Assembly: GCF_007641235.1 (NCBI RefSeq)
Contig: NZ_CP038157.1
Span: 682,001 to 746,000, forward strand
Length of the DNA: 64,000 nucleotides
Direction: 5' to 3'
DNA from: Corynebacterium sanguinis
Lineage (GTDB): Bacteria > Actinomycetota > Actinomycetes > Mycobacteriales > Mycobacteriaceae
How positions within the stretch are numbered: the first letter of the stretch is position 1; the number at the start of each line of letters is the position of its first letter. The translations under genes and the position numbers were made by a program. Shown piece by piece: positions 473 to 19,891 of this stretch. Under the pieces are notes generated by a model. The model saw only the letters and a list, made by a program, of their open reading frames with translations. It ran no database searches and had not been told where the DNA came from.

Positions 473-841
473 TTAGATAAGGCCGCCGAACGGGATCTCC
501 CCGGGGCCCTGCTGGGCGCCACCCGGGTTGGCCAGCGGGCCGATCTTATCCTCGGCGAGGCGGCCGGCCTTGGTGTGCGCGTCGCGGTAGGCGGCGAGGA
601 TGAGGTCCTGCAGCGTTTCGACGTCCTCCGGGTCGACGGCCTCGGGCTTGATGGAGAGGTCGGTGATCTCCGCGCCGCCGGTCATGGTGACGGTGACCAG
701 CCCGCCGCCTGCGCTGCCTTCAACGGTGGTGCTGAGTAGTTCCTGCTGCGCGCGCTGCAGGTGAGCCTGCATCTCGGCGGCCTGGCGGATGAGTTCCTGC
801 ATGTCGTTGGGCATGTTGGGCTGGGTCACGGTGAGTTGCAC
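473..841 (-). CDS. ybaB: YbaB/EbfC family nucleoid-associated protein
   Basis: Small DNA-binding protein of the YbaB/EbfC family, a dimeric tweezer-like fold usually encoded between dnaX and recR. The 122 residues show the family pattern: a long N-terminal helix rich in Q and A (QAAEMQAHLQRAQQEL), a glycine-rich strand region (GSAGGGLVTVTMTGGAEI), then DPEDVETLQDLILAAYRDA. The GTG at 839-841 follows a TACATT box by 8 bases, which fits leaderless translation. A second GTG at 827-829 would give the N-terminus MTQPNMPND seen in relatives and is a real alternative. The acidic/glycine C-terminal tail is unremarkable. Confidence 0.93.
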   Translation of the reverse strand: MQLTVTQPNMPNDMQELIRQAAEMQAHLQRAQQELLSTTVEGSAGGGLVTVTMTGGAEITDLSIKPEAVDPEDVETLQDLILAAYRDAHTKAGRLAEDKIGPLANPGGAQQGPGEIPFGGLI

Positions 842-3523: not shown

Positions 3524-3556
3524 GGCAGTCAGCTTAGCCGAGTGGGGTGACAGCTA

Positions 3557-4507
3557 TCAGGGCGACGGCGGGTAGACCACCGGCGGCGGGAGCTGCCCAT
3601 TGCCGAAGTTGCTCACGATGGCCAGGTCCGCCACGCCGTGGCCGAGAGCCCTGGGCTGGCACGGCAACGTCCCGATCTCGCCGTCGCGAAGCCACTGCAC
3701 AATCGCCTCGATAACGGTGGGGTTGTACGGGAGGAAGAAATGCCCGGAAAGATCTGCCGGGCAAACGTCTTGCAACACGATGTTCGTCGCCCCGGGCAAT
3801 CGCTGGTCAATGGCAACCAGCACACCGTCAAATCGGCTTCCGAAGGTGGCGTAGCGCACGCCCTCGATGATTGGCGTCTGCGCCAGCGAGCGCATGACCT
3901 CACTGCCGCCCACGTGGTCGACCAAGGACGGGGCGATGACGGATTGCTGCGCCGAACTCGTGTGCAGCTGCTGGTCAATCCCGGGCAGGTTCACACCATT
4001 GGTGGGCGAGCCGAGCCCGAACCAGGACGCGGCCCTGCCGTGAGACATCTCGTTGATCCAGTACCGTGTCACGGTTGCGCCCTGGGAATACCCCACCATG
4101 TGCACGCGCGTCGCACCCGAGGTGGCCATCGCGCTGCTCACCAACCTGTCGATCTGCGCGGCGGAGTCGACAAGCGGGGCCCACCCGTATGAGTTTTCGC
4201 CGTAGCCGTAGTCGATTCCGTAAACGCACCACCCGGACCTGACGAGCGTTTCGCCAATGAGCGCGTAGTCCGCGTAGAAGGTCGCGTCGGTACCGTGCAC
4301 GAGCACGAAGATCTCGTCGGCTGTGCACCGCGGGTCGTTGCTCCCCTCCGGTGCCATCATGGTGCTGCCCTGGCGCTGGACCGCACCCGCGTGGCCGTCG
4401 AACTGCGGCAGCGCGACCTGCGATGACGCCGCCTGCACCGGTGCGGAGCCGAACAGCAACGCAAGCACCACACAAACGGCGGTGCTGACCCGCGCGCGAA
4501 AACTCAT
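3557..4507 (-). CDS. Secreted triacylglycerol lipase/esterase (alpha/beta hydrolase)
   Basis: Exported lipase-like enzyme of 316 residues. A signal peptide is clear (MSFRARVSTAVCVVLALLFG, cleavage after VQA). The oxyanion-hole strand VLVHGTD and the nucleophile elbow GYSQG with the Ser intact identify an alpha/beta hydrolase. The catalytic His is probably in DLSGHFF near residue 265. The family (lipase class 2-like, common in corynebacteria) hydrolyses acylglycerols at or outside the envelope. It is placed between dnaX and the SUFU-like gene on the same strand. A divergent homologue at 18075 has lost the nucleophile. Confidence 0.85.
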   Translation of the reverse strand: MSFRARVSTAVCVVLALLFGSAPVQAASSQVALPQFDGHAGAVQRQGSTMMAPEGSNDPRCTADEIFVLVHGTDATFYADYALIGETLVRSGWCVYGIDYGYGENSYGWAPLVDSAAQIDRLVSSAMATSGATRVHMVGYSQGATVTRYWINEMSHGRAASWFGLGSPTNGVNLPGIDQQLHTSSAQQSVIAPSLVDHVGGSEVMRSLAQTPIIEGVRYATFGSRFDGVLVAIDQRLPGATNIVLQDVCPADLSGHFFLPYNPTVIEAIVQWLRDGEIGTLPCQPRALGHGVADLAIVSNFGNGQLPPPVVYPPSP

Positions 4508-4522
4508 CTGCCCACTTCCTTC

Positions 4523-5053
4523 TTAATCCACCTCGCGGCCCCAGTCCCCAACGCTCGTGCCGCGGCGGCGCAGGCGCGTCTGAAGAGCCGGGTAACCGCG
4601 CTCGCGCAGAATCGCGAGCTCCTCGTCGCTGAGCAGGATCAACTCGAGCAGCAGCGTCATAACACCCGGCTCATTATAAAGCGGGGTGCCCCGGGAGAAA
4701 ATCTCGGGTTCCCGCAGGTATCCGTGCTGCAGCGCGTGCTGCGGTTGCAGGTCGTCCAACAGCACACCGGGCTGCGCGGGGACGCCGAGCGTTTCCAGCA
4801 TTCGGGTCGCGGCCACCACGGCACCAGCTACCGCGTGCGGCTGCGCGTCGGCACGGCAGATCAGCTCGCAGCGCACGGACGTGGCCTGGTCATCCTGCAT
4901 CACAAGACCGGTGTCCACGGTGGAAAACCCGGCGGTCACAGCCGTGGGGAGGCCGTCGATGATGCCCAGGGCGACAGGGCGGGCGTCGGCAAGCGACAAG
5001 CTCATGCCCGGCAGAAACGTCGCAATCCAGGCGGCTGCCTCGTCGCCCGTCAC
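4523..5053 (-). CDS. Suppressor-of-fused-like domain protein (tentative)
   Basis: 176-residue soluble protein of unknown function. Its C-terminal half (residues about 125-165: TPLYNEPGVMTLLLELILLS, then DEELAILRERGYPALQTRLR) resembles the end of bacterial suppressor-of-fused domains, which finish with a leucine-rich strand followed by SDEE and an alternating helix. No catalytic motif is visible. Its start overlaps the stop of aspT by four bases, so it is probably translated with that gene. The family call rests on pattern memory only; otherwise it is a conserved hypothetical protein. Confidence 0.5.
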   Translation of the reverse strand: MTGDEAAAWIATFLPGMSLSLADARPVALGIIDGLPTAVTAGFSTVDTGLVMQDDQATSVRCELICRADAQPHAVAGAVVAATRMLETLGVPAQPGVLLDDLQPQHALQHGYLREPEIFSRGTPLYNEPGVMTLLLELILLSDEELAILRERGYPALQTRLRRRGTSVGDWGREVD

Positions 5054-6321
5054 GCGCCCAGCTTCTCGACGGCCGCGAGCAGCACGCAGGTGGCCACGCC
5101 GTCCATCGCCTCCCGGACCTCCTCGAGCGGAGGCAGAGAGGGCGCGAGGCGGATGTTGCGGTTACGTGGATCCTTGCCGTGCGGGAAGGAGGCACCTGCC
5201 TTGGTCAAGGTGATGCCTGCCTGCTTCGCCAGTTCCCACACCCGATCGGCGGTGCCGTCGATGACGTCGAGGGAAATGAAGTAGCCGCCTTCAGGCTTCG
5301 TCCACCTCGCAACGTCGTACTCGCCGAGGCGCTCGTCGAGAATCTCCAGCACCGCCGCAAACTTCGGCGCCAGGGAGCCGGCGTGCTTGCGCATCAGTGC
5401 GCGCACGCCCTCGGCGTCGCCGAAGTAGCGCGCGTGCGCGAGCTGGTTGACCTTGTTCGGGCCGATCCCGCGGGTCCCTGCGATCTGGGAGTACCAGTTC
5501 AGGTTCTCCTTCGACGACGCGAAGAAGGACACCCCGGCGCCCGCGAAGGTGATCTTGGATGTTGAGCTCATGTACCAGAACCGGTTGGGGTTTCCCTTTT
5601 CCGCGGCAATGGAAATAACGTCCGGGTTGTCCGGGAACTCATCCGTCAACGAGTGCACGGCGTAGGCGTTGTCCCACACGATGCGGAAGTCCGGGGCGGC
5701 TGTTTCCATCGCTGCGAGACGCTCGACCGCCTCGCGGGAGTAGGAGATGCCGGTGGGGTTTCCGAAGATGGGCACCGACCACATTCCCTTGACCTGCGGA
5801 TCCTGCACCAACTGCTCGATGGCGTCAATGTCCGGGCCGTTTTCCAGCATGGGCACCTGGACCATCTCGAAGCCGAACTGCTCGGTGATGGTGAAGTGGC
5901 GGTCGTATCCGGGCACCGGGCAGACCCACTTGACGTTGTCCTCGTCCTTCCACGGACGCTGCGAGTCGTTGTTGCCGAAAGCGTAGGAAAAGGAGATGAG
6001 GTCGAACATGATGTTGAGCGAGGATGAATCACCCGCGATGAGGTTCGCGTGGTCGATGCCGAGGACTTCGGCCCAGAGCTCGCGGATGTCCGCGATACCA
6101 GCGAGGTTGCCGTAGTTGCGCACGTCCGCGCCGGTGTTGTCCACGTAGTCCCCGGCACCCGGAAGCTCGAGCAGCGCGTTGGAGAAGTCGAGCTGCTCGC
6201 TCGAGGGCTTGCCGCGGGTCAGGTCCAGCTTCAGGTCTTTGGCCTTCAGGTCCTCGTAGCGTGCTCGGACGTCGGCGGCGAGCTGGTCAAGTTCGTTCTT
6301 CTCAAGATCCAGGAGAGACAT
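5050..6321 (-). CDS. aspT: Aspartate aminotransferase, class I fold (AspT type)
   Basis: PLP enzyme that interconverts aspartate/2-oxoglutarate and oxaloacetate/glutamate. The 423 residues show the actinobacterial subtype: an N-terminal MSLLDLEKNELDQLAADVRA helix, LDLTRGKPSSEQLDFS, FGNPTGISYS, WDNAYAVH, and the PLP lysine in SSTSKITFAG. The ATG at 6319-6321 is chosen over an upstream extension that would translate through the repeat array. In C. glutamicum the same enzyme lies near dnaX, ybaB and recR, which supports the call. Confidence 0.93.
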   Translation of the reverse strand: MSLLDLEKNELDQLAADVRARYEDLKAKDLKLDLTRGKPSSEQLDFSNALLELPGAGDYVDNTGADVRNYGNLAGIADIRELWAEVLGIDHANLIAGDSSSLNIMFDLISFSYAFGNNDSQRPWKDEDNVKWVCPVPGYDRHFTITEQFGFEMVQVPMLENGPDIDAIEQLVQDPQVKGMWSVPIFGNPTGISYSREAVERLAAMETAAPDFRIVWDNAYAVHSLTDEFPDNPDVISIAAEKGNPNRFWYMSSTSKITFAGAGVSFFASSKENLNWYSQIAGTRGIGPNKVNQLAHARYFGDAEGVRALMRKHAGSLAPKFAAVLEILDERLGEYDVARWTKPEGGYFISLDVIDGTADRVWELAKQAGITLTKAGASFPHGKDPRNRNIRLAPSLPPLEEVREAMDGVATCVLLAAVEKLGA

Positions 6322-6402
6322 CGGGTGCGTCACTTTCGTCGGCGGACAATCTGTGCCCATGGTACGTGGTCGGCGCGTGTCTCCAGGGGCTCGCGCACTG
6401 CG

Positions 6403-6549
6403 TGTTCGACCGGAACGGTTATTCCGGGGCTGCGAAGGCCTCATTCAGCGCTTCCGGTCGAACAGGTACTTCTGGGCCGGCAGGGCGAGTTCGACCGGAA
6501 CGGGCTGCAGGTGTGTTCAGGAGGGGTTCACGGCGCTTCCGGTCGAACA
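6403..6549. repeat. Four-copy alternating inverted repeat, TTCCGGTCGAACA
   Basis: A 13-base word occurs four times in alternating orientation: 6403-6416 (forward GTTCGACCGGAA), 6452-6464 (reverse), 6489-6501 (forward) and 6537-6549 (reverse). Each forward/reverse pair can form a 12-13 bp stem with a 35-36 base loop. The block lies between the SRP RNA gene and aspT. Confidence 0.8.
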
Positions 6550-6795: not shown

Positions 6796-6884
6796 GGAGG
6801 ATTCGACTAGCGGCCTATGTCACACGCCTGGAACGCGTGCGGGTAGCAATACCCTCGTGGGTTCAAATCCCACATCCTCCGCCA
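6796..6884 (+). tRNA. tRNA-Ser (anticodon GGA)
   Basis: 89 bases with a long variable arm as expected for serine. The acceptor stem GGAGGAT pairs with ATCCTCC, and the T arm contains GGTTCAAATCC. The anticodon loop CTGGAAC gives GGA. CCA is encoded at 6882-6884. One of four serine isoacceptors in this window. Confidence 0.96.
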
Positions 6885-6933: not shown

Positions 6934-8205
6934 CTAGAGGCCCAGGGCGAGGAAGGGAAACGTGCAGATCTTGTCTTCGGTGGTGTAACTCATCCCAGTC
7001 GCGGTGATAACGGCTGCGAAGGATGGGGGCGTGCCGGCATCGATTTGGTCGAGTGCCTTGCGCAGGCGGCGGACCCCCTCATCGACCTGGCCGTAGCCAA
7101 GCTTGACTTCGACGGCACCCCAGCGGGCGTCGTCAAGCACGATGACAGCATCAATCTCATACCCGTTAGAGTCGCGGTAGTGGTACACGCGACCCCCGAG
7201 GGCTTCCGCCATGACCGAAAGGTCGTGAACCACGGCCGACTCGAACAAAAAGCCAAGCGTTTCAGGATCGCGGCGCAGGCTCTCCGCCGTCGCTCCTAGA
7301 GCGGCTGCAGCCAGGGATGCGTCGGCGAGGTGGTATTTCCTACTGGTCCTCAGTCGCGCCTTTGAGCGCAACCGGGGGGCCCACGCAGGGACCGATTCGA
7401 GGACAAATATCCTTTCTAAGGTATCGACGAGCATCGCGACCGACTCAACACTTATCGAGGGCGCCACCGACTTGAGGTCCTTGCGAATGGTGGCCTGGGT
7501 TACCTCTGAGGCGGTCACACGCGCGAGGGATGCCAGGAGCTGGTCGAGGACAATCGGATCGTGCCGGAAGTCGTGGAGACGGTAGACGTCCGTGCGCGCC
7601 GTCTCAGAAAGGTAAGCACGAAGTGGACCTCGCGATTGTTCGGGCGAAAGCGAAATGTGAGCGGGAAAACCGGAGGTTAAGAGTGCCTCGAGGTTGTCAT
7701 CAAGGCTGAACTGGGTTGGATCGGTTGGAACATCTGCCCCGCTAAAGAGCTCATTGAGCGCGACGCGCGGCTGCGATTTCCCCTTCTCCGCCCACGTGAG
7801 GGTGCGCTGCCGAATGCGGAGAAAACGAGCGGCACCGCTGTGCCGCGTAATGTCATCGCTCGGAATGGCAGAGCCTGTGAGGATGTAGTTGCCGAAGCCC
7901 TCCGCTCGGTCCACCTGCCGGCGCACCTGATTCCATACTTCGGGCCTCAGCTGCCATTCATCAATCAGGCGCGGCCTTTCCCCTATCAACGGGTAGTCGG
8001 CGTCAATATCGGCAAGCGTAACCGTCGCAGGATCGTCCATAAACACGGCCGAGGCCGCATGCGCGACACCAGTCATTGTCTTCCCACAACCGCGCGGCCC
8101 TTCAAGCACGACGGCTCCGTGTGCGGCGAGTGCTTCCTCCACCTGCTTATCGACGAACCGCGGACGGTACTCCCGCCCGAGAACTACTCCCGTATCCACG
8201 CCCAC
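6934..8205 (-). CDS. ATP-binding protein with DUF4143 domain
   Basis: AAA-type ATPase of 423 residues from a family that is common in accessory regions and whose physiological role is unclear. Walker A GPRGCGKT lies at 36-43, a Walker B-like LIDEWQ near 80, and a substrate/sensor segment NYILTGSAIPS near 110. The C-terminal DUF4143 part ends in a PD-(D/E)xK-like fold pattern: FESAVVHDL, then EIDAVIVLD and AVEVKLG. The coordinate uses a GTG at 8203-8205. A second GTG at 8199 lies 7 bases after a TAGGCT box and would fit leaderless translation. Upstream are three 23-bp-spaced repeats. It is oriented with the DUF499 operon but separated by about 100 bases, so it may be a neighbour rather than a component. 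Confidence 0.8.
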   Translation of the reverse strand: MGVDTGVVLGREYRPRFVDKQVEEALAAHGAVVLEGPRGCGKTMTGVAHAASAVFMDDPATVTLADIDADYPLIGERPRLIDEWQLRPEVWNQVRRQVDRAEGFGNYILTGSAIPSDDITRHSGAARFLRIRQRTLTWAEKGKSQPRVALNELFSGADVPTDPTQFSLDDNLEALLTSGFPAHISLSPEQSRGPLRAYLSETARTDVYRLHDFRHDPIVLDQLLASLARVTASEVTQATIRKDLKSVAPSISVESVAMLVDTLERIFVLESVPAWAPRLRSKARLRTSRKYHLADASLAAAALGATAESLRRDPETLGFLFESAVVHDLSVMAEALGGRVYHYRDSNGYEIDAVIVLDDARWGAVEVKLGYGQVDEGVRRLRKALDQIDAGTPPSFAAVITATGMSYTTEDKICTFPFLALGL

Positions 8206-8222
8206 CAGCCTATTCGGATTTC

Positions 8223-8291
8223 TGCAGACTTTCTAGGTCGAGGTATGCAGACTTTCTAGGTCGATTCGTGCAAACCTGACATCTGGCACCG
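8223..8291. repeat. Tandem repeat, 23-bp period, TGCAGACTTTCTAGGTCGA
   Basis: Two identical 19-base words start at 8223 and 8246. A third diverged copy (TGCAAACCTGACATCTGGC) starts at 8269, keeping the 23-bp period exactly. The array is 20-80 bases upstream of the DUF4143 ATPase start and downstream of the DUF499 stop. It could be an operator array or one of the genome's short intergenic repeats. Confidence 0.75.
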
Positions 8292-8305
8292 AAAGGCTAC
8301 AAGCC

Positions 8306-11300
8306 TCAGCTAAACTCCGAGAACTTAAACCCGAGCTGCGCCGCGTTTTCCTTGATCACCCGGATCGTGGAATCGGGAAAGCCTGCCGGAAGCTCCGCTT
8401 CAATCTCAACCGTCACGCGCATGCTGGCACCTGAAGCTCTGAGCATTTCCAAAATCTCGTTGCCGATGGTGTAGAAGCCCGATGCGTACGATTCACCGTC
8501 CACTGGTGCCGCACCACGGTATCGTGTTTTCACCAACACCTCAGGCGCCGAGGGCGCGGGGGTAATCGGAGTGTCCACATCCAGGTCAGGATCCGGCGAG
8601 GGCGTCGGCGCGACCGGCTCCGGTTCAACGACCTGCTGCTGCGCGAGCTCAATAGAGAGCAACACAGTCGAGTCCGTGACGTTGAAGGAGCCCGTCCCCG
8701 CCGGCGGAATCACCATATCGAGGTACCTGCCTGAGTCTGGGTCTTTGCGTGCCGCAATGGCAAACTTCTCAGAATCGACCATAATGCGTTGGGTCGCACC
8801 CGCGATGGCGGAATCGAGAACCTCCCTGCGTGCAAGCCGCATCATATAGGGGAAGCGCGTGAAGTATCCCCACAGCTCACCGACCGTGATTTCCCCCTGT
8901 TCATCCCAGATCGCGCCAAGCTGGTCGCGCATGGTCATCCCGAGGGTCTCCGCGCCGAGGTCCGCAACGAGCTGCCCACCGCGAATCAGCTGGGCAGCAG
9001 CGCGCTCCGGGATTGTCCCGGCGCCGGATCCCATTTTGTCGTGCTCCACCGTGAAGGGCTGCGTGGCGTCATCCATCTCGGGGTAGAGCAGGTGCGAGTA
9101 GGCCGAGATGATCTTATCGTCGACGGATTCGTTGAATCTCCGCCGGTTCTCAACGGCCTGGCGCGTCTGCTGCGCCGAGAGGTTGAGCGCGTCCGCGTCT
9201 TCGACAACAGAATCCCACGCGAGGAAGTTGCGCACTGCGGCATCCAGGCTCTCGAGCTCGGCGCTGTCGGCCGCGGCGAAGACCAAGGTATTGCGGAACA
9301 CTCGCGGAGTTGACCCCCGCTGCTCGATCGTGTCATGGACCCAAGCGCGCGCGGGGTTAACCTTCCCGCTGCGCGAATACGGGTACTTGGGGTGGACGAT
9401 GACGAGGGCGACGGTGTCTTGGTCTGGAACGTCACCGCTGGCCGTCGGAGCCGCGTGAATCCGCTGGAAGTGGTTGTCCGGCTTGGCGGTGCGCTGCAGC
9501 CTGGTGACCACTTCGTTCCACACGGTGTCGGGGTCTTCGCGCAACCTTTCGGCGTAGTCCGCGGCTGTCTTGGCCACCGAGGGCTGGGTATCGAACCAGT
9601 AGTGGCCGTTTTCCTCGTAGAAGAAGGTCGAGCGCTGGGAGAGCTGCTCGAGGGCGCTGCCGAAGTTGCCCAGCTGGTCCCCCGGAACTGCCACGCCCAA
9701 CCAGACGTACTGCTTATCCAGGCCCTTTCGGGAGGTGCGGGGGGCAGCCCCCATAAAGATTGTGCGCGCGATGCGCTGGGTCACCGATCGCGCGCCGAGC
9801 ACGGGCTTTTGTTTATCGACGACCGCCGCTGTCGATCCTTCCCCGTCAATGTCGGCGTCGATAATAGGCTTCCAGGAATCCTCCAAGTACTGCGTGAGTT
9901 CGGTGCCGACAGCGTTCGATCCCACGGGCACGGTCCCCGGCATGATCATCGGCGATGTGTCGTTCGTGGCCCACAGCGTGGAGACGATGGTGGAGACGAG
10001 CTTGAGCACGCCGCGGGTGCGCTGAAACCGCTCGAGAGCCGACCAATCCTCGTAGAGCCTGTCCAAAAGCTCCGGGTGGATCGGGTACGAGCGCTTGATG
10101 CGGGTCTCATAGTCGTTGCTTGCGGTGGCCGCCTCGCTGGGGAAGAGCGGGGAATCTTTCCGGTACATCTCCGCGAACAGGCGCGCCGTCGCGCTTATTT
10201 GGCGCAGCTGATCGGCATCGGGGTCCCGGAATACTCGGCGCCGGACGATTTCGAAGGACTCCTCCTTCGTCGAGGGGCGCCACTGGTCAGCCACACGCCC
10301 GATGACGTTCTGTAGGTTCTGCAGTGCCGCCTTGCCGCGGGCACCACCGACCTCGTTATCCCTGGCCTCACCGTCGGCGGCCTCCTCGGACGCCGGGATG
10401 GAGACCAACAGCATCGTACGCGGGGTCGTACGAACTGCCTCCGTGAGCGTTTGCGCAAAGGTAAATTGCGTTTCAAAGCTGCCCGCGTGCAGCCCCGTTG
10501 CATCGACGAGCTGGCGGGCGTAGGCCACCCATTCGTCGATAAGGATGAGCGACGGGGAATACTCGCGCAAAACCCTGTGCAGAGACTCGCCCGGGTTCGT
10601 GCCGGTGCGGTCGGCCTCCGCGACGATCTCGTACGCCTCAGGCCCGCCGAGCTGCCAGGCGAGTTCGCCCCAGAGCGTGTGCACCTGCGTGCCATCGGGC
10701 TTTGTATCAACACTCCCCGGGTGCAGGTACGTGCCAACGAGCACGACGCGGCGCAACCCGAGGCCTTCCAGGTCCACGTTGCCGTTGCTAGCCACGAGCT
10801 CCTGGACGTCCTGGGGGTAATCCTTCGCGGGGAGTCCGCTAAACAGGTGGTAGAGGGCCAGCATGGAGTGGGTTTTGCCGCCGCCGAAATTCGTCTGCAG
10901 GTTCACCACGGGGCTAGCGTTATCGTCTCCGCCGAAGCGCTTGAGCGCGCGGGACAGAAGATCGCTCAACCCTTCCGTGAGGTAAGTGCGAGTGAAGAAT
11001 TCGACCGGGTCGGCGTATTCGGCGGCGTGTGTCTCTCGCTTGTGCACTTTGTGCAGGTCGGCGGCGAACTCCGCGGCGGTAAAGTTGCCATTCAGCACGT
11101 CGTCGTGCGGCAGGATCACCTCACGCCAGGGTTTCATGCCCGCGCTAGGTTCCACGGAGACGGCCCTCGTGCGGGTATCGCTCCGCGTCTGCTCCTGGAA
11201 GACCTGACGCTGTAGCGTCTGGCGCTCTCTGGCTACGTCATCCGCAGAGTCCGATGCGTCGACGGCGCGAAGCAGGCGCTCAATTGTGTCGAGGGCGCGG

Positions 11301-11641
11301 ATTGTGTCGTCCGAGCTGAGGGTTTTGCCGTGCGCCCAATTGTCGCGCACTTCCCTCAGCTCGGAGGCGTAGGACTGCTGGGGACGGGACAGAACATCTT
11401 TGAAGTTGTAGCCGTACTCAGTGATGGCCTTCAGCAGCGTCTGCGGGTCGTCCAATTCCATTGAATAGGATGACCTGCCGGTCTTTTGCGCCATGCGCCG
11501 TGCCCACACCTCGTTCCAGGGGGTATTTGTCCCGTCCTGAAGCTCCGGAACTGTCTGCATCACCTCGTCGACGGGGTCCTGCAAGCCTTCGACAAGGTAC
11601 TCGAAGGCTGCGGTCAGCCGCTCCCTGTTGCTTTTCGCCAT
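8306..11641 (-). CDS. DUF499 ATPase with N-terminal Swt1/HEPN-like domain (putative anti-phage)
   Basis: Large AAA+ ATPase (1111 residues) of the DUF499 / COG1483 family, whose members are typically found beside DUF1156 methylases and helicases in defence islands. Residues 1-130 are helical and Swt1/HEPN-like, with EVRDNWAHG containing R99-x4-H104, the HEPN ribonuclease signature. Walker A NFGGGKTHS lies at about 251-259 and Walker B SLILIDEW at 364-371. The C-terminus has a Pro/Asp linker (about 1000-1030) before a last 75-residue alpha/beta segment (VTVEIEAELP). The ATG at 11639-11641 has a GGGAG site; an upstream TTG at 11662 is less likely. It is third in the operon. Role inferred; the family itself is poorly characterised. 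Confidence 0.85.
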   Translation of the reverse strand: MAKSNRERLTAAFEYLVEGLQDPVDEVMQTVPELQDGTNTPWNEVWARRMAQKTGRSSYSMELDDPQTLLKAITEYGYNFKDVLSRPQQSYASELREVRDNWAHGKTLSSDDTIRALDTIERLLRAVDASDSADDVARERQTLQRQVFQEQTRSDTRTRAVSVEPSAGMKPWREVILPHDDVLNGNFTAAEFAADLHKVHKRETHAAEYADPVEFFTRTYLTEGLSDLLSRALKRFGGDDNASPVVNLQTNFGGGKTHSMLALYHLFSGLPAKDYPQDVQELVASNGNVDLEGLGLRRVVLVGTYLHPGSVDTKPDGTQVHTLWGELAWQLGGPEAYEIVAEADRTGTNPGESLHRVLREYSPSLILIDEWVAYARQLVDATGLHAGSFETQFTFAQTLTEAVRTTPRTMLLVSIPASEEAADGEARDNEVGGARGKAALQNLQNVIGRVADQWRPSTKEESFEIVRRRVFRDPDADQLRQISATARLFAEMYRKDSPLFPSEAATASNDYETRIKRSYPIHPELLDRLYEDWSALERFQRTRGVLKLVSTIVSTLWATNDTSPMIMPGTVPVGSNAVGTELTQYLEDSWKPIIDADIDGEGSTAAVVDKQKPVLGARSVTQRIARTIFMGAAPRTSRKGLDKQYVWLGVAVPGDQLGNFGSALEQLSQRSTFFYEENGHYWFDTQPSVAKTAADYAERLREDPDTVWNEVVTRLQRTAKPDNHFQRIHAAPTASGDVPDQDTVALVIVHPKYPYSRSGKVNPARAWVHDTIEQRGSTPRVFRNTLVFAAADSAELESLDAAVRNFLAWDSVVEDADALNLSAQQTRQAVENRRRFNESVDDKIISAYSHLLYPEMDDATQPFTVEHDKMGSGAGTIPERAAAQLIRGGQLVADLGAETLGMTMRDQLGAIWDEQGEITVGELWGYFTRFPYMMRLARREVLDSAIAGATQRIMVDSEKFAIAARKDPDSGRYLDMVIPPAGTGSFNVTDSTVLLSIELAQQQVVEPEPVAPTPSPDPDLDVDTPITPAPSAPEVLVKTRYRGAAPVDGESYASGFYTIGNEILEMLRASGASMRVTVEIEAELPAGFPDSTIRVIKENAAQLGFKFSEFS

Positions 11642-11753
11642 GACATCTCCCAGGCAAGCCAATAAGCCCCGTTTGGCGGGGTAGTTTTCATTCCTTATGG
11701 AATCAATCTACGCAACGCCGCGCTCTTGCGGTGGGATTCCGTCACAAAAGCTT

Positions 11754-14522
11754 TTAAAACTCCAGGTGGCCCTGGGCACCTACAGGAAGCTCCGCGGCGA
11801 GCTGGCGTGCCTTTTCTGTGAGGTCGTTCCACGAGGTCACCAGCGCGTTGAACATGACACCGTGGGAGGTATCACCGTTCTTTTCTGCCTCGTGGTAGAG
11901 CAGGAACCCGAGCTCCTTGACGGCGTCTTCATCGACGTGGCCTTCGATGTCGTTGAGCATGCCGGCGACCCTGTCGATGCCGTCGACGCTGAGCGCACCC
12001 GTTAGCCGCACGGTGGCTTCCCAGATGCTCACGGATTCGTCGCTGGCCACGTCCCATGCCTCGGCGAGTTCCTCCGGCGGGATGAGGCGCGCCTTGCCGC
12101 CGCTGGCCTCGAGGATGCCGCCGCGCACCAGCCCGCCGAGCGATGTGTCGGAGGAGCGGGCAAGCTGGTCGGCGATGCCTGAGCTCTCCTTGCCCCACGC
12201 GTAGGTGCGGTACCAGCGCAGCGCGAACCTCGAGTCCGGGTCGAGGTCTGCCTCCTGCTCCCCGAGGACCTCGTCGAGCACCTGGTTGATAAGGATGAGC
12301 GCATCACGCACGCCCATGTTGGACCCGTCGGGCTCGCGCACGAGCGAGTAGCGGGAATACACCGCGATGCCCGGGCCGATCGCGGCCTGAGCAAGGTCCA
12401 CCGGCGCGATGGTCGCCTGCATGAGTGCGCGCAGCGACTCCGGCAGCTCGCGCTTGAGTTCGCGGACGAACGCCCGGCGCGTGGTTGTCGGCGCGTCTTC
12501 GTGGCGCGGACGGCAGGCGAGCACGATTGAGGACGCCAACGCGTTCGTGCCGGATGCAATCATGCGAACCGAACCCTCCGTTCTCATTGGCCAGGTCGCG
12601 GTGATCTCCCAACCGGCATTCATCAGCCCATCGAGCAACGTGTGCCAGCCCGTCGAAGACGTGCCGGCATCGCGAACGTCCTGCTGCTTGTACGCGTAAT
12701 AGACGGTCAGCGGAACATCGCTCCTAGCGCCGTCGCGCATCCGCTTGAAGACCTTGTTGAAGCCTTCAACGAAGAACTGCTCCGCACCCTCCCTCCCGCC
12801 GTGGCGATACGGGTTGGCGACCAACTCCTCAGTTTTAGGCGTAAGCATGGTGTCAAAGACGCTAGGGAGGATCACCCTCAGTGAGCGCCGCAACCACACG
12901 TAGAAGAAGTCCGACAGGTCGGAGTACCCGATGTTGTCGTAATAAGGGGGATCGGTAGAAACAACTAGCCCCGAGTACTCCCCCTCCGCCGCGTCTGCCT
13001 GACAAGCTTCTGCTATTGACCGAGCTGGCGAGGTGGATATCACCTTGGTGATCCAAGTGAGCTGGCCGATGAAATTCCCGCTAGAAGCCGAAAAAGGATT
13101 AACCTCAGCGTAATCCCACACCATCGGGATAGCTTGCCTCCCGAACACATTTCGCATCTTCTCGCCGGTGTTGTGCCAGCTGCAGAGACTTGACGAATAG
13201 TCCGCCATACGCCCAATACTGAGACCGAGGTACGTCGCCACCGCATCCGCGTAAGCCTCCGCACCGCTGCCGCCGGCGTCGAGTCGGGCACCGCGCTCCA
13301 TACCCGACGTGAGGGCATCGCTAAGCACCTTCTCACGCGCCTCGGAGACCAGGTCACTCAGCGTGGTCAGCGCGACGAGCTGGCGGTTGGTGAAGAGGTC
13401 TGCCCAAAGCTTGAAGCCATATGCTTGTACCCGGAACGACGGAGCGACAGGGGGCAGTTTAGCAGTTGGAATTGTTCCAGGGCGCTCTGTCTCAGACGCC
13501 AAAACATGCTTGCTAGAAGGAGAAATATAGATCCTGCCGCGAGAATCCTCTCCGACTACTGCAATCAAGTGCGCCCCCATCCGTCCGGCCTTCCCCTCTG
13601 ACCGGATGTACTTGAGGTCGATCGGCGTGCCGTCGGCAATCGATACCGCCCCCTTGCGCGACACCGTCCCATCCGCATCGCCCTTCGGCCCCTCGGCGTC
13701 GTGGCGGACCTCGTAGCGCACCTCGCCGTCGACGACCTTGGCCTCGACCCAGGCTTCCTTGCCCTTCTTCTTGCTCAACCACCACGAACGCACCAGCGGC
13801 ACCTCGATGGGGTTGGCGGGGTTCGGGTTTTTCACCGTGCGCGCCCAGATCCACGCGATTACCGTGTGCTCGGTGCCGCCTGGCGCCGTGACCTTCGGGT
13901 AGAGGTGGCCGATGCGCTTTTCCGCCTCGTCGCGCATCCACTCGCCGTAGAAGCGGACGTCCTCTGCGAGCCCCTCCGCGCGCGACCAGCCGTTCGTAGG
14001 CGCGGGAGCGTCCGGGTTCACAGGGGCTTGGCCGGCAAACTTCGGCGGGATCTCAATCATGGCCTTGTTGATAAGCACCGCCAGCGGGTTAAGGTCACTG
14101 GCATGTGCCTCGAGCCCGAGGCGCTGCGCCTCGAGCGGGATCGCACCACCACCGGCGAAGGGATCCACCACGGCGGGAAGTTCACCGCCGTTGGATTTTC
14201 TAATCTCCTTGCGCGCCTGTGCAAGGAGCTTCTCGTCGTTGGAGTTCTCCCACACCACGAGCTTTTCCAGCAGCCCGTGCAGGCGGGCGCGCTCGGCGTC
14301 TTGTTCCTCCTCCGTGGGGAAGAGCTCGGGGTGGGAGGAGGGGTCGTCGACAAGCTGCGCGAAGAGCACCGCGCGTGCGGCCGCGAGCGGGCGGCGCGCC
14401 CAGTAGAGGTGCAGCGTCGAGGGGTGGCCATGGCGAATGGATTTCTCGCGGGCGGACTCGGCGTTGATAACCTCGAGCGGCAGGGCGACCTCGATGAGCT
14501 TCTTGCGCGGGGTGTCAGTCAC
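11754..14522 (-). CDS. DUF1156 adenine-specific DNA methylase (putative anti-phage)
   Basis: 922-residue DNA methyltransferase of the DUF1156 / COG1743 family. The N-terminal DUF1156 signature is clear (EVALPLEVINAESAREKSIR, then GHPSTLHLYWARRPLAAARA). The SAM site DPFAGGG lies at 120-126 and the N6-adenine catalytic motif DPPYYDN at about 524-530. The expected zinc-ribbon loop after WIWARTV reads KNPNPANPIEV, with no cysteines. The gene starts 25 bases after the helicase stop. In such systems the methylase is thought to mark self DNA, although the target site cannot be read from sequence. Confidence 0.9.
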   Translation of the reverse strand: MTDTPRKKLIEVALPLEVINAESAREKSIRHGHPSTLHLYWARRPLAAARAVLFAQLVDDPSSHPELFPTEEEQDAERARLHGLLEKLVVWENSNDEKLLAQARKEIRKSNGGELPAVVDPFAGGGAIPLEAQRLGLEAHASDLNPLAVLINKAMIEIPPKFAGQAPVNPDAPAPTNGWSRAEGLAEDVRFYGEWMRDEAEKRIGHLYPKVTAPGGTEHTVIAWIWARTVKNPNPANPIEVPLVRSWWLSKKKGKEAWVEAKVVDGEVRYEVRHDAEGPKGDADGTVSRKGAVSIADGTPIDLKYIRSEGKAGRMGAHLIAVVGEDSRGRIYISPSSKHVLASETERPGTIPTAKLPPVAPSFRVQAYGFKLWADLFTNRQLVALTTLSDLVSEAREKVLSDALTSGMERGARLDAGGSGAEAYADAVATYLGLSIGRMADYSSSLCSWHNTGEKMRNVFGRQAIPMVWDYAEVNPFSASSGNFIGQLTWITKVISTSPARSIAEACQADAAEGEYSGLVVSTDPPYYDNIGYSDLSDFFYVWLRRSLRVILPSVFDTMLTPKTEELVANPYRHGGREGAEQFFVEGFNKVFKRMRDGARSDVPLTVYYAYKQQDVRDAGTSSTGWHTLLDGLMNAGWEITATWPMRTEGSVRMIASGTNALASSIVLACRPRHEDAPTTTRRAFVRELKRELPESLRALMQATIAPVDLAQAAIGPGIAVYSRYSLVREPDGSNMGVRDALILINQVLDEVLGEQEADLDPDSRFALRWYRTYAWGKESSGIADQLARSSDTSLGGLVRGGILEASGGKARLIPPEELAEAWDVASDESVSIWEATVRLTGALSVDGIDRVAGMLNDIEGHVDEDAVKELGFLLYHEAEKNGDTSHGVMFNALVTSWNDLTEKARQLAAELPVGAQGHLEF

Positions 14523-14547
14523 TGCATCAGGGTATCAACGCTGCTCA

Positions 14548-17500
14548 CTAGGCCCGCGGATCGATCCCCCTGTTCCAGTGGTAGGCCCACTTTTCGTTAG
14601 AGGAGTCCGTCCCCAGGCCGGGGCGGTAGGTGTCGAAGGCGCGGTACACATAGCGGATGTCATCATGTGCAGCCCCGTCGGGAGACAGGCTCACCAGCGA
14701 CAAAATATGGCGGTTGTCCTCACTCTGGTTTTGCGCAAACTGAATCTCGCTCACCGTCACTGTGAACAAATCGGCGCCGCGAGTACGAGCCTTAACCTCG
14801 ATGAAGTAAACATCCCCGTTCGCATCGGTGGAGCGAATATCAAAACCCTTGTTGTTGTGCGGCATCTCCTCGGGTGCGCGCCCGAGCGCGCGTTCCGCCG
14901 CCATCGTCAGGTCAACTCCGCGGCGCTCCGATTCCTCGGTGCTAATTGCAAAGGTATCCGGATCTTTGTCTTCTTTTCTAGGGCCGACGATACCGGGCGG
15001 GAGGACGAGCGCTACCCCGCGGATTACCCCAGGAGCCGCCACGAGGCGGCGCTGCCGCTCGATGTCGGCGAGGCGTCTACCCAGCCGCTCCCGTAACTCC
15101 TCGCCCTTGCGCCGGGCTGCCGCCTCCGAGATCTCCTCATCGTGTTTGTCGCCGTCACCGGCAAGGCGCATGGCCTGGCTGTACCAGCGATTGGATTCCG
15201 CGGTGAGCCGCTCACGCACCTGCTGGGCAGTGCGATCGAGCTCCGCGTTCCTGCGCCGCACCAGCTCGCCCAGGCGCGGGAGCGCACCGTCCTCGTAGGC
15301 CTCGCGAAGCGCCGTAACCGTCACCTCGGCAGCAGGCTTCTTCGTCAGGCCATGCGCGAGCGCATAGGCGTACTCCTCCTCCGACGCGGCATCAAACGAC
15401 AGGTGGGCTGGGCTCGATCCCGTCTCCACCGCGATGTCGGTCTCCTGCGGGTCAGCCGGGATGACCACGTAGTCGAAGTGGTGCGAGACCACGTCATTCT
15501 CCGCCTCAGCCGTGTGAATGGTCTGCTCAACGATGTAGAGCAGGTGCGGGACGGTCACAGGGGTATCCCTGCGATCCACCAGCACTGTACCGGTGGTAAG
15601 CGTCTCGGAGAGCTGGTCGATGGTGTGGTTAACCAAGGCGTCGAGAAGCGGGTGCCCTGGCGCGAGCAGCACCGCCTCGGGCGCGCCCTCCACCGAGACC
15701 CGCTGAGGCGAAAACGTCACGCGCTCGTAGCTGCGGGCCACCGCACCCCCTGCAGCCCGCGCCCTGGCACAAACCGCGGCGGGCACATGCGTCACCTCGT
15801 AGCGGCCCTGCTCCCGCTCGAAAATTCCACCCCCAAAGCGCTCTAGCGCGGACCTGACGAAGGCATCGATGGCGCCAGGCTGTAGTTTGCGCTCGCGTGC
15901 GACCTCCATCGCTCGCTTAATCTCAGCGACGTCTGCCTCACCGAGCGTGTCGTGGTCCAAGGCGGTTTCCTCCACGAGCTCGCGCAGGCCCAGCGTGATA
16001 CCTGCATCGATAACCTCGTTCATGCGGCGCCTTGTGGCGGGATCATCACCGTACCGGATTGCCTTGACAAGCAGGTCTTTGAGCGACTCGTTTTCGAAGG
16101 CGTCGCCGTTTCCCAACACGTTGAATAGGCTGCCGTTGTAGGCCTGTCCCATGACCTCAATCTTGCCCAAAAGCGCCGCAAACACGTCACCCTCCCGAGT
16201 ACCGCCGGCGACCAAGTTCCACAGGTGGCACACTTCCCTCTGACCGATGCGGTGGATGCGCCCGAACCGCTGCTCAATACGGTTCGGGTTCCAGGGAAGG
16301 TCATAGTTGACCATGAGGTGCGCGCGCTGGAGGTTAAGACCCTCCCCTGCCGCATCGGTGGCCACGAGGACGACCACGTTGGGGTTGCGCGTGAACTCTT
16401 CCTGGATCCGCGTGCGCTCCTTACGGGCTACCCCGCCGTGTATCGCCACCACGGCATCTTGGCTCCCAAGCAGCGCGGTGATTCGCCGATTCAGGTAGTC
16501 GAGAGTGTCCCTGTGCTCCGTAAAGACGATGAGCTTGCGCGGTGCACCGTCGGCCGTCGGCGTGCCGAGCACGCGGGTGTTCAAGATCGAGCGCAGTTGC
16601 ACCCACTTGGAGTCCTCCTCCGCATTGCGCACACTCTGGGCCTGGGCAACAAGCGCGTCAAGCGCGGCGATCTCCGCGCGGAGCTCCTCTACAGTCTGCG
16701 AGGCCGTCGCAGCGTCGAGAACTTCCTGCTCGACATCCTCCACCTCGGCGGCGGAATATTCCTCGTCGTAGGAGCTCAACCGCTCCACATCGTCTTCGCT
16801 TAACCTGGGATCTACGACCGGGTCCAGGTAACCCTGCTCGAGCAGCCTCGCGCGCTCATCAAGCCGATCGCGCCGCCGCTTGAGAGAGAGCACAATCGCC
16901 TCCGGGCTCGAGGCTAAGCGCCGCTGCAGGACCATGAGCGCGAACCCAACCGCGTTACCGCGCTTCCTATCCTTAATGCGTTCCGCGCGACCCATCTGCG
17001 TGCGCACATAGTCCGTAACGTCGTCGTACAAGGCACGTTCTGCATCAGTGAGGTCGTAGACCACCGTGTACGCTCGCCTCTCCGGGAAGAGCGGCTTGCC
17101 CTCGAAGGTGAGAAGGTCTTCCTTGACCATCCGGCGCATCAGCCCTTCGGTGTCCGTGGTGTGGACGCCGCTGCGGAACTCACCTTCGAACCGATCAGGG
17201 TCTAGCAACGACATGAACAGCTGGAAGTCCTCCTCCTTGCCAGCATGCGGGGTTGCCGTCATCAGCAGGGCGTTGCTCGCCGAGCTCACCAAGGCGCGCC
17301 CCAATTCGAATCTCCTCGTTGCCTTCACCCCGCCCGCCCACGAGCTATAGTGCGCGGACATGCGGTGCGCCTCGTCGACTACAACGACATCCCAGTCCAC
17401 CTGCGCCACCGCACCGACGAGGTCCTCCCGCCGCGCCACCTGGTCCATTTTGGCCACGAGAAAAGGGTGCGTGTCCGGCCATCCGTGCTGATGGACCATC

Positions 17501-17946
17501 GCCGGATCGAACACATCGAAGCGGAGCCCGAACTTCTCCTCCAGTTCGGCGCACCACTGATCCACCAGCCCACCCGGCGCGATGATGAGCGCGCGCTTGA
17601 GAGCCGAGCGCAGAAGCAGCTCCTTGAGATAGAGGCCCGCCATGATGGTTTTGCCCGCGCCGGGGTCGTCCGCGAGGAGGAACCTCAGCGGGATACGCGG
17701 CAGCAGCTCGCCATAGACTGCACGAATCTGGTGGGGCAAGGGATCCACCGCGGAGGAGTGGACGGCGGCCATGGGGTCGTAGAGCCCCGCATAGTTAATA
17801 CGCAGCGCCTCCGCCGCCAAACGGAAATCCGCGGCATCGGCGGTGAAAGTGGGAATGAACCCTTTCACCACAAGCTCAAGCGCTTTAGCTGAGAAAACAT
17901 CAACGCCTTGGGTGGCAATTCCTATGGCCCGGTTTTCTGTGTGCAT
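14548..17946 (-). CDS. SNF2-family helicase with C-terminal DUF3883 domain (putative anti-phage)
   Basis: 1132-residue superfamily 2 DNA translocase. Walker A is DDPGAGKTIMAGLY (93 onward) and motif II is VVVVDEAHRMS (DEAH at 191-194). The helicase C domain carries ATDAAGEGLNLQ and the SNF2-type NRIEQRFGRIHRIGQ. The last 110 residues form a DUF3883 module (NKGFDIRSTDANGDVYFIEV, then KARTRG), a nuclease-like fold also seen on DISARM DrmD helicases. The ATG at 17944-17946 has a GAAGGG site; a TTG start 78 bases upstream is possible. It is the first gene of the three-gene operon. Confidence 0.9.
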   Translation of the reverse strand: MHTENRAIGIATQGVDVFSAKALELVVKGFIPTFTADAADFRLAAEALRINYAGLYDPMAAVHSSAVDPLPHQIRAVYGELLPRIPLRFLLADDPGAGKTIMAGLYLKELLLRSALKRALIIAPGGLVDQWCAELEEKFGLRFDVFDPAMVHQHGWPDTHPFLVAKMDQVARREDLVGAVAQVDWDVVVVDEAHRMSAHYSSWAGGVKATRRFELGRALVSSASNALLMTATPHAGKEEDFQLFMSLLDPDRFEGEFRSGVHTTDTEGLMRRMVKEDLLTFEGKPLFPERRAYTVVYDLTDAERALYDDVTDYVRTQMGRAERIKDRKRGNAVGFALMVLQRRLASSPEAIVLSLKRRRDRLDERARLLEQGYLDPVVDPRLSEDDVERLSSYDEEYSAAEVEDVEQEVLDAATASQTVEELRAEIAALDALVAQAQSVRNAEEDSKWVQLRSILNTRVLGTPTADGAPRKLIVFTEHRDTLDYLNRRITALLGSQDAVVAIHGGVARKERTRIQEEFTRNPNVVVLVATDAAGEGLNLQRAHLMVNYDLPWNPNRIEQRFGRIHRIGQREVCHLWNLVAGGTREGDVFAALLGKIEVMGQAYNGSLFNVLGNGDAFENESLKDLLVKAIRYGDDPATRRRMNEVIDAGITLGLRELVEETALDHDTLGEADVAEIKRAMEVARERKLQPGAIDAFVRSALERFGGGIFEREQGRYEVTHVPAAVCARARAAGGAVARSYERVTFSPQRVSVEGAPEAVLLAPGHPLLDALVNHTIDQLSETLTTGTVLVDRRDTPVTVPHLLYIVEQTIHTAEAENDVVSHHFDYVVIPADPQETDIAVETGSSPAHLSFDAASEEEYAYALAHGLTKKPAAEVTVTALREAYEDGALPRLGELVRRRNAELDRTAQQVRERLTAESNRWYSQAMRLAGDGDKHDEEISEAAARRKGEELRERLGRRLADIERQRRLVAAPGVIRGVALVLPPGIVGPRKEDKDPDTFAISTEESERRGVDLTMAAERALGRAPEEMPHNNKGFDIRSTDANGDVYFIEVKARTRGADLFTVTVSEIQFAQNQSEDNRHILSLVSLSPDGAAHDDIRYVYRAFDTYRPGLGTDSSNEKWAYHWNRGIDPRA

Positions 17947-18074
17947 TGTTCGCCCTTCTTCCGCTGAGGACGATTCTAATGACTCCCCGGTATAACCCCC
18001 GCCAAAAGTCTGTTTTCGTACCAACTTTCAATTGCACTACCGGTGCATAATATGCGCCCATACGATGAGCGATT

Positions 18075-19001
18075 ATGAGGACCACTCCCCCACACCCCAC
18101 ATTTGTGGCAACGCTTGCCGCGGTCACCCTACTGGCCGGTGGCGCAGTCGCCGGCGCGTCATCGAGTTCACCCTCTCTCGGTTCGGCCATCTCGAGCTTG
18201 GCAAGTGGGAGCGTGATTAACGATCCCTCGTGTCTCCCCTCGTCCGCACACCCCCACCCGGTCGTGATCCTCCACGGGACCTCGGCGAACATGTGGGAAT
18301 TCAACAAGCTCGCGCGCTACCTCAAGGATGAGGGGTACTGCTCGTATGGCATCAACTACGGCAAGGAACTGCTCACCGCCCAGGCTATCGTGCCTTCGCT
18401 CTACGGTACGGCGGACCTCAACTCCAGTTCGGAGGAAGTCGCTGGATTTATCGACAACGTGCTGGAACAGACGGGCGCGGAAAAGGTCGACATCGTCGCC
18501 CACCCCCAGGGCGCGCTGCAGGCCAAGAACTACATCTCACGTTTCGGCAACGCCGACAAGGTCGACCGCGTTGTCACCATGTGCGCCAGCCTGCACGGCA
18601 CGACGCTCAACGGCAGCGGTGACTTCCTGTTAAAACTGGTCACCGCGATGCCGTCACTTACCGCGTTCTTCGCGTCGACCGCCGCGATCCAGCAACTCGC
18701 CGGCTCCGCCACGATGGCCGAGGCAAACTCGTTCCCCGACACGGCCGCGGGCGTGACGTACACGTCCCTCTTCTCCCCCAACGACACCACCGTCACCCCG
18801 AACTCGGCATCCTATTTCTCCCCGGTGCCCGGCGCGAACGTCGTTAACCTCGACGCCGAGGCAGCGTGTTCGCCGGACACCCCCATCACGCATCCCGACA
18901 TGCCGGCGCATCCGACCATCGTGGCGTTGACGAAGTGGGGATTAGAGCGCCCCACGGATGAGGTTCTGCCCAGCGCCGAGGATTGCGCGCCCCTCGCCTA
19001 A
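18075..19001 (+). CDS. Secreted lipase-like protein with Pro at the nucleophile position
   Basis: 308-residue exported alpha/beta-hydrolase homologue. The signal peptide is at residues 1-28 ([18 protein letters not shown]). The oxyanion strand [15 protein letters not shown] matches the actinobacterial triacylglycerol lipase family. The nucleophile elbow, normally GHSQG, reads AHPQG: the codon at about 18502-18504 is CCC instead of TCC. The rest of the fold ([13 protein letters not shown]-terminal [13 protein letters not shown] with candidate catalytic His) is kept. It is either a pseudoenzyme, a recently inactivated enzyme or a sequencing error. The stop overlaps the convergent gluQRS stop by four bases. 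Confidence 0.8.
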
Positions 19002-19891
19002 GCCCACACCCACGGCTCGCGCGGCAAACGCTCCGGATCAAAGGCGGCGAGCAGTTCGCTGATCGATGCCACACCCGCGCACCCGAGCGAGTCCGCAATG
19101 CGGACAACCACATCCTGCGCGGGTCCCATCTCGCGCAGCGTCACCGCCCCATCGCGCTTGGCCAGGCGCCGCCCCTCCCGGTTGACCACCAACGGAACGT
19201 GGACGTACTCCGGTTCCACGTAGCCCAGCAGCGAGGACAGGTAGGCCTGGGCCGGAGCGGAGTCTAGAAGGTCGTCGCCGCGCACGACCTGGTCGACGCC
19301 CTGCGCGCCATCGTCGACAACGACCGCGAGGTTGTAAGCCCAGTCGCCCGCCTGCGCCTGGTAGACGTTGCCTCCACGTTTGAGCACGACGTCATCGACC
19401 ACACCCTTTACCTCGCCGCGGTAGAAATCCCGCACCGTCCACTCGACCACCCCGGCGCGCAGGCGCAGGGCCGGCAGTCGTCCCTGCTTCGCCAGCTGTA
19501 AGCGTCGATAAGCGCGCTGCTCATCCGACAGGTCCCGGCAGGTCCCCAGGTACATCCCGGGCTGGGCGTGGGGCGCACCGGCCGCCTCACGGATGTCTCG
19601 GCGCGTGCAATAGCATTCGTACACAGGTAACTTGTTCAAAGCAGCCTCGTACAGCGCCGTGCGCTGCGATTGGTACACCACGGGCGGGTCGAAATCCAAG
19701 CCGATCGCCTGCAGATCCTCGATTTGGCGGCGGGCGGACTCCGGGGAAGACCGCTCCGAGTCAATATCCTCGACACGCAGGTAGAAGGCGCGGCCGCTGT
19801 GCCGCGCGAAGAGCCACGCCAAGACAGCAGTGCGCAGGTTGCCAAAGTGGAGGTCCCCGCTCGGGGAGGGTGCATAGCGTCCGGCCGTCAT
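18998..19891 (-). CDS. gluQ: Glutamyl-queuosine tRNA(Asp) synthetase
   Basis: Truncated glutamyl-tRNA synthetase paralogue (297 residues) that attaches glutamate to the queuosine base at position 34 of tRNA-Asp. It has the class I start [18 protein letters not shown] (HIGH motif as HFGN) and ends in a degenerate KMSKS (LAKRDGA). A zinc-type cluster is seen at [10 protein letters not shown] and GTCRDL. It lacks the anticodon-binding domain, as expected. It is divergent from yhhQ across only 18 bp and one gene away from tgt, so three queuosine-related genes lie together. The ATG at 19889-19891 is 6 bases from a TATCTT box, consistent with a leaderless mRNA. Confidence 0.92.

Follow-up and report, generated by a model that had tools for sequence, protein, structure and literature searches.

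A 64,000-nucleotide stretch of the Corynebacterium sanguinis chromosome (NZ_CP038157.1, positions 682,001 to 746,000; this whole stretch is called the window below) carries an operon of three minus-strand genes, hmaA, hmaB and hmaC, which encode a helicase, a DNA methyltransferase and an ATPase (Table 1). An original prediction made from the letters of the window had placed three intact, co-directional genes here, which was borne out by our scan of open reading frames (ORFs), with ORFs at 8306-11662, 11754-14522 and 14548-18024, the first and third of which contain in-frame ATG starts at 11641 and 17946, respectively. The intergenic gaps of 25 nt (hmaA-hmaB) and 112 nt (hmaB-hmaC) were also as predicted; the tRNA gene that had been described as adjoining the operon is, however, separated from it by a DUF4143/AAA_14 gene. 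The genome is a single contig of 2.36 Mb in which DUF499 was found once, and promoter and terminator scans gave results near chance.

All of the core motifs that had been read as intact (Walker A and B, DEAH, DPPY) were located and are conserved among relatives. HmaA, for which RapA is the best solved-structure match by sequence, retains the helicase motifs PGAGKT and DEAH, as do its relatives, and its DUF3883 region, which had not been recognised as a nuclease, is a PD-(D/E)xK domain with the D, the E and the K all retained in 62/62 aligned HmaA sequences. HmaB carries DPFAGGG and DPPYYD, both kept in relatives, and DPPY together with family precedent suggests an adenine (N6-type) methylase. 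In HmaC, whose Walker B motif reads LILIDEW, the ATPase is preceded by a Swt1-type HEPN domain that the original prediction had missed; its Rx4H motif is present in the window, and among the aligned rows the R is found in 75/80 and the H in 79/80. The PADLOC HmaC profile begins past this domain, matching from residue 176, and the predicted structure has a helical N-terminal domain followed by a low-confidence linker (156-166). No solved structure was matched by sequence at E 0.01 for HmaC or HmaB. In the HmaB model, about 176 residues of the class I core align across residues 16-674, and an insertion that runs from a strand at 139-143 to about residue 500, ahead of the motif IV strand at 520-523, overlaps the variable region 301-545.

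Table 1. Features of the window and G tracts in hmaB of related loci.
Feature	Position	Strand	Evidence or remark
tRNA-Ser(gga), left border of variable slot	6796..6884	+	Separated from operon by DUF4143/AAA_14 gene
DUF4143/AAA_14 ATPase gene beside hmaC, PADLOC candidate PDC-S01	6934..8205	-	Profile matches; common to G117, present in G020
hmaC, HEPN-DUF499 AAA+ ATPase	8306..11641	-	PADLOC HmaC; Pfam DUF499
Walker A NFGGGKTHS of HmaC	10865..10891	-	GGGKTH in 80/80 rows
HEPN_Swt1 RNase domain of HmaC, residues 1-150; RDNWAH at residues 99-104	11192..11641	-	Pfam HEPN_Swt1 E 1.1e-25
hmaB, DUF1156 DNA methyltransferase, GTG start	11754..14522	-	PADLOC HmaB
HmaB residues 301-545, variable target-recognition region between motif I and DPPY	12888..13622	-	68% amino acid identity to G117
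Catalytic motif DPPY of HmaB	12942..12953	-	Invariant in 40 aligned HmaB
SAM-binding motif I DPFAGGG of HmaB	14145..14165	-	GGT GGT GGT in window
hmaA, SNF2/RapA-like helicase with C-terminal DUF3883/NOV_C PD-(D/E)xK nuclease	14548..17946	-	PADLOC HmaA; Pfam SNF2-rel_dom, Helicase_C, NOV_C
NOV_C (DUF3883) nuclease domain of HmaA, pattern GFDI...FIEVK	14716..14928	-	Pfam NOV_C E 2.2e-14
gluQRS, conserved gene right of slot	18998..19891	-	NCBIfam GluQRS
hmaB of relatives with out-of-frame G tract (G8-G11)	L017 12589-15350; L018 10695-13451; L112 10001-12750; L066 1509-4269; L135 1178-3948		
hmaB of relatives with in-frame G tract (G8-G11)	L040; L043; L061		

The three adjacent genes gave long matches to the PADLOC profiles HmaA (1167.8 bits), HmaB (1120.9 bits) and HmaC (816.8 bits), and by these matches the operon is an Hma or Type-1 BREX-related (BR; BREX, bacteriophage exclusion) system, a known system and not a new one; its HEPN domain places it with the HEPN-fused members. 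The proposal of a three-gene operon of defence type stands, while that of an undescribed candidate system does not, as the operon matches a named one. It is real, ordinary as a kind and probably working.

The family has a history in print (papers are cited here, and throughout, from partial texts). HEPN-DUF499 in an operon with restriction-modification (RM) components and SNF2-DUF3883 was first noted in 2013, when DUF3883 was described as a 'novel REase domain' of the PD-(D/E)xK nuclease type (PMC3710099). The helicase-methylase-ATPase trio was named Hma in 2021, with 1,638 instances in 26 phyla (PMC8565338), and the window shows no systematic difference from the system as described in the available text. 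In 2026, Hma was reclassed as the Type-1 DUF499-centred BR system, with 2446 taxa, a HEPN fusion in 1370 of them and a C-terminal PD-(D/E)xK nuclease on the helicase in 79%, a TUDOR domain at the helicase N-terminus being a further feature of the type (PMC12839542). With the HEPN variant set out in the available part of that paper, the window shares the HEPN-DUF499 ATPase, the DUF1156 methylase and the SNF2 helicase with C-terminal PD-(D/E)xK, and no further core gene; the methylase target-recognition insert of Type-1 BR, placed after core strand 2, is likewise present in the predicted structure of HmaB. The same text treats the ATPase, methylase and helicase of Type-3 BREX (BrxC, BrxXI, BrxHII) as homologous to Hma and states that an experimental study has borne out a function of the HmaA helicase in phage defence. 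HmaA in the window matches the PADLOC BrxHI and BrxHII profiles at 305 and 303 bits, and no PglZ, BrxA or BrxB, as known from BREX types 1-6, turned up among the five neighbouring genes scanned together with the operon, a search that did not extend to the remainder of the genome.

The original prediction had also noted that the helicase resembles DrmD of DISARM (defence island system associated with restriction-modification) and had held the locus not to be canonical DISARM; we agree on both counts. HmaA does match DrmD, with which it has the SNF2 helicase core in common, but this likeness is secondary: the PADLOC DrmD profile gives 362.9 bits against 1167.8 for HmaA, and the 365.9 bits obtained with the NCBIfam DrmD profile do not reach its cut-off of 610. 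The partners that DrmD has in DISARM, DrmA (DUF1998) and DrmB/C, were not seen among the five neighbours scanned, and among the eight proteins scanned in or beside it there was no DUF1998 or PLD family member, except for weak matches of the HmaA helicase core to PLD-helicase profiles. DISARM and other SNF2-helicase systems were ruled out by profile scores and cut-offs, leaving a DISARM-like system, or another known one with a DrmD-type helicase, a negligible prospect.

Comparing close relatives, we observed that HmaB varies in one region while its partners stay constant. Between the window and its nearest relative (G117), HmaA (50-1132) and HmaB outside residues 301-545 are each 97% identical, whereas HmaB 301-545 is 68% identical, and identical codons in hmaB amount to 57% in this region vs 89% elsewhere. 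Our 28 close pairs were drawn from window/G117, G135/G025 and Rhodococcus and Thermus plasmids (12 plasmids plus L152), the plasmids having been picked among the matches listed, 60 of 190 matching records; hmaB was usable on both sides in 22 pairs. In 21 of these 22, HmaB 301-545 is only 46-84% identical beside HmaA (50-1132) and HmaC 151-700 that are 97-100% identical, and in the remaining pair HmaB 301-545 is identical. In a five-plasmid group of R. rhodochrous/pyridinivorans, the whole of hmaB has been replaced in 9 of 10 pairs, identical codons in the replaced pairs being 49-52% in hmaB vs 84-88% in hmaA. Because HmaA and the HmaC core are constant in 21 of 22 pairs, they need no change when the HmaB target region changes. 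This variation beside fixed partners, together with the G8-G11 tracts in relatives' hmaB described below, suggests that HmaB alone probably sets the specificity of modification as well as of restriction, in the manner of Type I/III RM or BREX. In Thermus thermophilus plasmids (L186-L190), hmaA is reversed, and HicAB- or RelE-type toxin-antitoxin and helix-turn-helix genes lie between hmaB and hmaC.

In HmaC, the part most diverged from the nearest relative is the HEPN domain (1-150), with 71% amino acid identity and 48% identical codons, vs 97% and 91% in residues 151-700. The domain has thus diverged or been exchanged (window 11192-11641 vs L015 8356-8805) between HmaC proteins that are otherwise about 97% identical. 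Such divergence, along with the keeping of the HEPN motif in nearly all aligned relatives, would fit a system that works mainly by abortive infection, with the HEPN RNase as chief effector and the nuclease-helicase mostly as sensor. We consider this quite unlikely, as the divergence was seen in 1 of 28 pairs, residues 1-150 being 89-100% identical in the other 27, and as the nuclease residues are invariant here, while 44% of Type-1 BR taxa have no HEPN domain according to the available text of PMC12839542. Exchange of HEPN as a general rule was rejected, the drop being seen solely between the window and G117.

The methylase gene is also the one most often found broken. In a set of 63 loci where each of the three genes reaches 80% or more, breaks affect hmaB in five, hmaA in two and hmaC in none (Fisher test of hmaB vs hmaA and hmaC together, p 0.042), and among the plasmid matches listed, more than one piece was needed to cover HmaB in 8/60, HmaC in 1/60 and HmaA in 1/60. 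Inspection of seven of the eight multi-piece plasmid hmaB records (H55 was left out) showed hmaB interrupted by a transposase gene in L152, L153 and L154, from three insertion sequence families (ISL3, IS3, IS4), and a frame break in hmaB of M. paraoxydans (L156); in Rhizobium (L155), the locus has decayed altogether. R. opacus PD630 is represented by two records of one strain, one of which (L150) has a frame break in hmaB that is not at a long run; the two were rejected as an on/off pair, since extra DNA sets apart the older one (L151), whose hmaC is split in two.

Alongside a broken hmaB, neither hmaA nor hmaC is split in Microbacterium No. 7, R. pyridinivorans 5Ap, R. opacus PD630 (L150), T. 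oshimai and M. paraoxydans. The finding of broken hmaB beside whole hmaA and hmaC in 5 of the 63 loci and in five plasmids suggests that the nuclease does not kill cells lacking the methylase. In a classic RM arrangement, HmaA and HmaC would cut unmethylated DNA by their own specificity, with HmaB serving only as protective antidote, and the natural loci with broken hmaB and whole partners should be lethal. A free-standing nuclease with its own specificity is less likely because such cells exist, and the classic scheme also sits poorly with HmaB target regions, or entire hmaB genes, that change with no matching change in HmaA or the HmaC core. The available text of PMC12839542 does describe the family as RM-like, with a methylase that likely prevents host degradation and an ATPase that contributes to invader recognition; we nevertheless regard the classic scheme as unlikely.

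Several relatives carry long G tracts in hmaB (G8-G11, runs of eight to eleven G), which are placed inside or shortly before S-adenosylmethionine (SAM) motif I in all but L066. The frame breaks at such runs in C. mustelae (G025) and the metagenome-assembled genome (MAG) G135, both with G9 in motif I, as well as in Bifidobacterium colobi (G8), G151 (G9) and a Bifidobacteriaceae MAG (G11), and G10 runs stand in frame in Actinomyces glycerinitolerans, a Corynebacterium MAG and B. simiarum. At the place where four relatives have a G9 or G10 tract in motif I, the window has three GGT codons, and no G tract is present in its operon, where the longest run is 5 in hmaB, 6 in hmaC and 5 in hmaA. In a tree of the C-terminal part of HmaB, the in-frame L043 clusters with the out-of-frame L017 and L018 (support 100/100) and the in-frame L061 with the out-of-frame L112 (support 100/99), and eight of the nine tract loci fall in a 32-row clade that holds the window. 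Two metagenomic proteins are related: one with the C. mustelae HmaB tail (100% in blocks, residues 550 to 918) is intact and has a different target region, and another (P0011) starts with an apparent out-of-frame reading and enters at GGG. Other runs were also found, namely an A7 run at a second frame change in C. mustelae hmaB, an in-frame C9 near the hmaB start of L064, A7-A8 runs in L045, L051, L080 and L018, a C9 in the broken hmaA of L056 and a C8 in L052; no run as long as 7 lies at the breaks in L020 (at G6), L058 (a stop), L150, L155 and L156.

Counting G/C tracts of 8 or more, we found them in hmaB of 8/85 loci, hmaA of 2/70 and hmaC of 0/81 (hmaB vs hmaC, p 0.0067; hmaB vs hmaA, p 0.11), with eight in 896 kb of flanks. 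A class-wide set, in which several loci are partial or distant, had them in hmaB of 1/29 (L135), with a T8 in one. Synonymous codon shuffles gave mean tract numbers of 9.2 for hmaB, 5.5 for hmaA and 9.8 for hmaC, the observed numbers being below these for hmaA and hmaC and not for hmaB; three GGG codons in motif I, for which 0.78 was expected, are in frame in two loci, and four loci have at least 8 G in a row there. The statistics of tract excess are ambiguous, as codon composition alone allows such runs.

The hmaB tracts resemble those of pglX in the Streptomyces Pgl (phage growth limitation) system, where the available text of PMC4365076 describes G tracts, and slipped-strand switching of hmaB is possible on this analogy, with one assembly per genome, runs that codon usage allows and none of them in the window. 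Pgl differs in having PglW and PglZ, and the window in its short runs. Phase-variable methylases are able to alter gene expression, as far as the partial sources tell, and with such tracts in relatives the locus might be a regulatory (epigenetic) methylation module instead of a defence system; conserved nuclease and RNase residues, patchy presence and the other mobile or defence-type genes that the slot holds elsewhere make this very unlikely. In the literature searched, which was of partial coverage with few subscription papers, we came across no account of phase variation in hmaB or of swapped targets, nor, in print, a comparison of HmaB target-region change with constant partners.

The operon lies in a variable slot and is patchily distributed: an HmaB search gave matches in 11/242 Corynebacterium genomes, nine real (window included, three of the nine frame-broken) and two weak (<25 bits). 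The original prediction had named conservation in all strains as an outcome that would speak against it, and 9/242 is far from that. An HmaC search matched 10/151 genomes, seven substantively (window included), one with a 48-residue remnant (G020) and two weakly. We inspected the slot between tRNA-Ser(gga) and gluQRS in six relatives that lack the operon; it is nearly empty in G058, G095 and G120. In G041 (L035 8382-16342), its contents are an integrase gene, a gene of FtsK type, a weak Rep-like match below the Pfam cut-off and an RM gene of Type IIG (Type ISP); G066 has a Schlafen/AlbA_2-HATPase-type ORF there (L037 2841-4493), and G048 a transposase and PhoD.

In relative G020, flanks that are 98.9% and 97.5% identical to the window enclose a locus in which the DUF4143 gene is kept and the operon is gone save for the hmaC 3' end, which matches at 94% over window 8048-8437, the last 132 nt being hmaC, with 48 HmaC residues at 85%. 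An internal deletion keeping both ends was rejected, as only the hmaC 3' end is clear, and because the DNA right of the gap is just 74% identical to window 17995-18875, replacement is as possible as deletion. In G117, the tRNA-DUF4143-hma block is 91-96% identical to the window in aligned parts, vs 80% for the core to its left, and the right flank (about 2 kb fetched) does not match the window. Slot contents and the patterns in G020 and G117 point to transfer and loss of the kind seen with other defence systems. For the tRNA as attachment site, no copy of its 3' region beyond 9-mers was found in 17701-19200. On viral contigs, seven distant relatives were matched.

The DUF4143 gene is a candidate neighbour only as regards membership of the system. 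Its protein is 98% identical over residues 98-423 in G117, where the ORF is shorter, and in L020 and L021, too, hmaC is flanked by a distant relative of it (about 30%). Farther out, window 1-6500 and 20000-64000, where scanned and named, hold housekeeping-type genes (dnaX, an Rv3722c-type aminotransferase, tgt, MMPL, and PepO-like, HrpB-like, CoA-disulfide reductase-like and acyl-CoA dehydrogenase-like genes).

The best explanation of these results, which we consider likely, is that the operon encodes an Hma (Type-1 BR) anti-phage system which moves horizontally and acts like BREX or a Type I/III RM complex. Here, HmaB would supply the main or only sequence specificity through its target-recognition region and N6-methylate the host's own sites as a self-mark, while HmaC, a BrxC-type AAA+ ATPase, would assemble or license a scanning complex. 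HmaA, a RapA-like translocase with a PD-(D/E)xK tail, would be engaged through HmaB at unmethylated sites and cut invading DNA, and the HEPN domain of HmaC may act as a conditional RNase that serves as abortive effector of last resort when DNA restriction has failed. The parts given here to HmaA in restriction, to HmaC in licensing and to HEPN as fallback are inferred from what is known of the family (available text of PMC12839542); family identity, intact motifs, patchy distribution, the variable slot and the variable or swapped HmaB region with a constant HmaA and HmaC core are what our comparisons showed.

Some points weigh against this explanation. The bias of breaks towards hmaB is modest, hmaA also being broken in 2/63 loci, and where hmaB is broken and its partners are whole, the cause could lie in early decay, in a sequencing error or in leaky expression. 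HmaC 701-1111 varies too, although less than the HmaB region (identity of 88-99% across the 22 pairs and of 82-99% across the full 28), and HmaA or HmaC could add recognition. The available text of PMC8565338 calls HmaB a 5-methylcytosine (m5C) methylase, whereas the window has DPPY, and the C-terminal RNA recognition motif (RRM)/ferredoxin fold of the family ATPase (PMC12839542, partial text) is not evident in the HmaC model, which has a low-confidence linker at 1009-1036, then two helices and no strands assigned.

Going one step further, Hma may be modular and switchable, a proposal that we think could equally well hold or fail: HmaB would be the exchangeable sole specificity subunit, changed by target region or as a whole gene, on a fixed nuclease-helicase and ATPase, with on/off switching by G tracts in one actinobacterial clade as in pglX. 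The window copy would then be fixed in the on state, its target region and probably its HEPN domain having been exchanged relative to its nearest relative.

How work is divided among the three proteins of the widespread Hma/Type-1 BR system has so far been inferred, according to the available texts of PMC12839542 and PMC8565338. If HmaA and the HmaC core stay fixed while HmaB changes, the target should be set by one subunit, a prediction that the natural variants can test directly; from the naturally hmaB-broken loci, it would follow that a nuclease deprived of its methylase does no harm. The complete chromosome of C. sanguinis and the G020 relative, which lacks the operon save for its hmaC remnant, offer a ready natural comparison.

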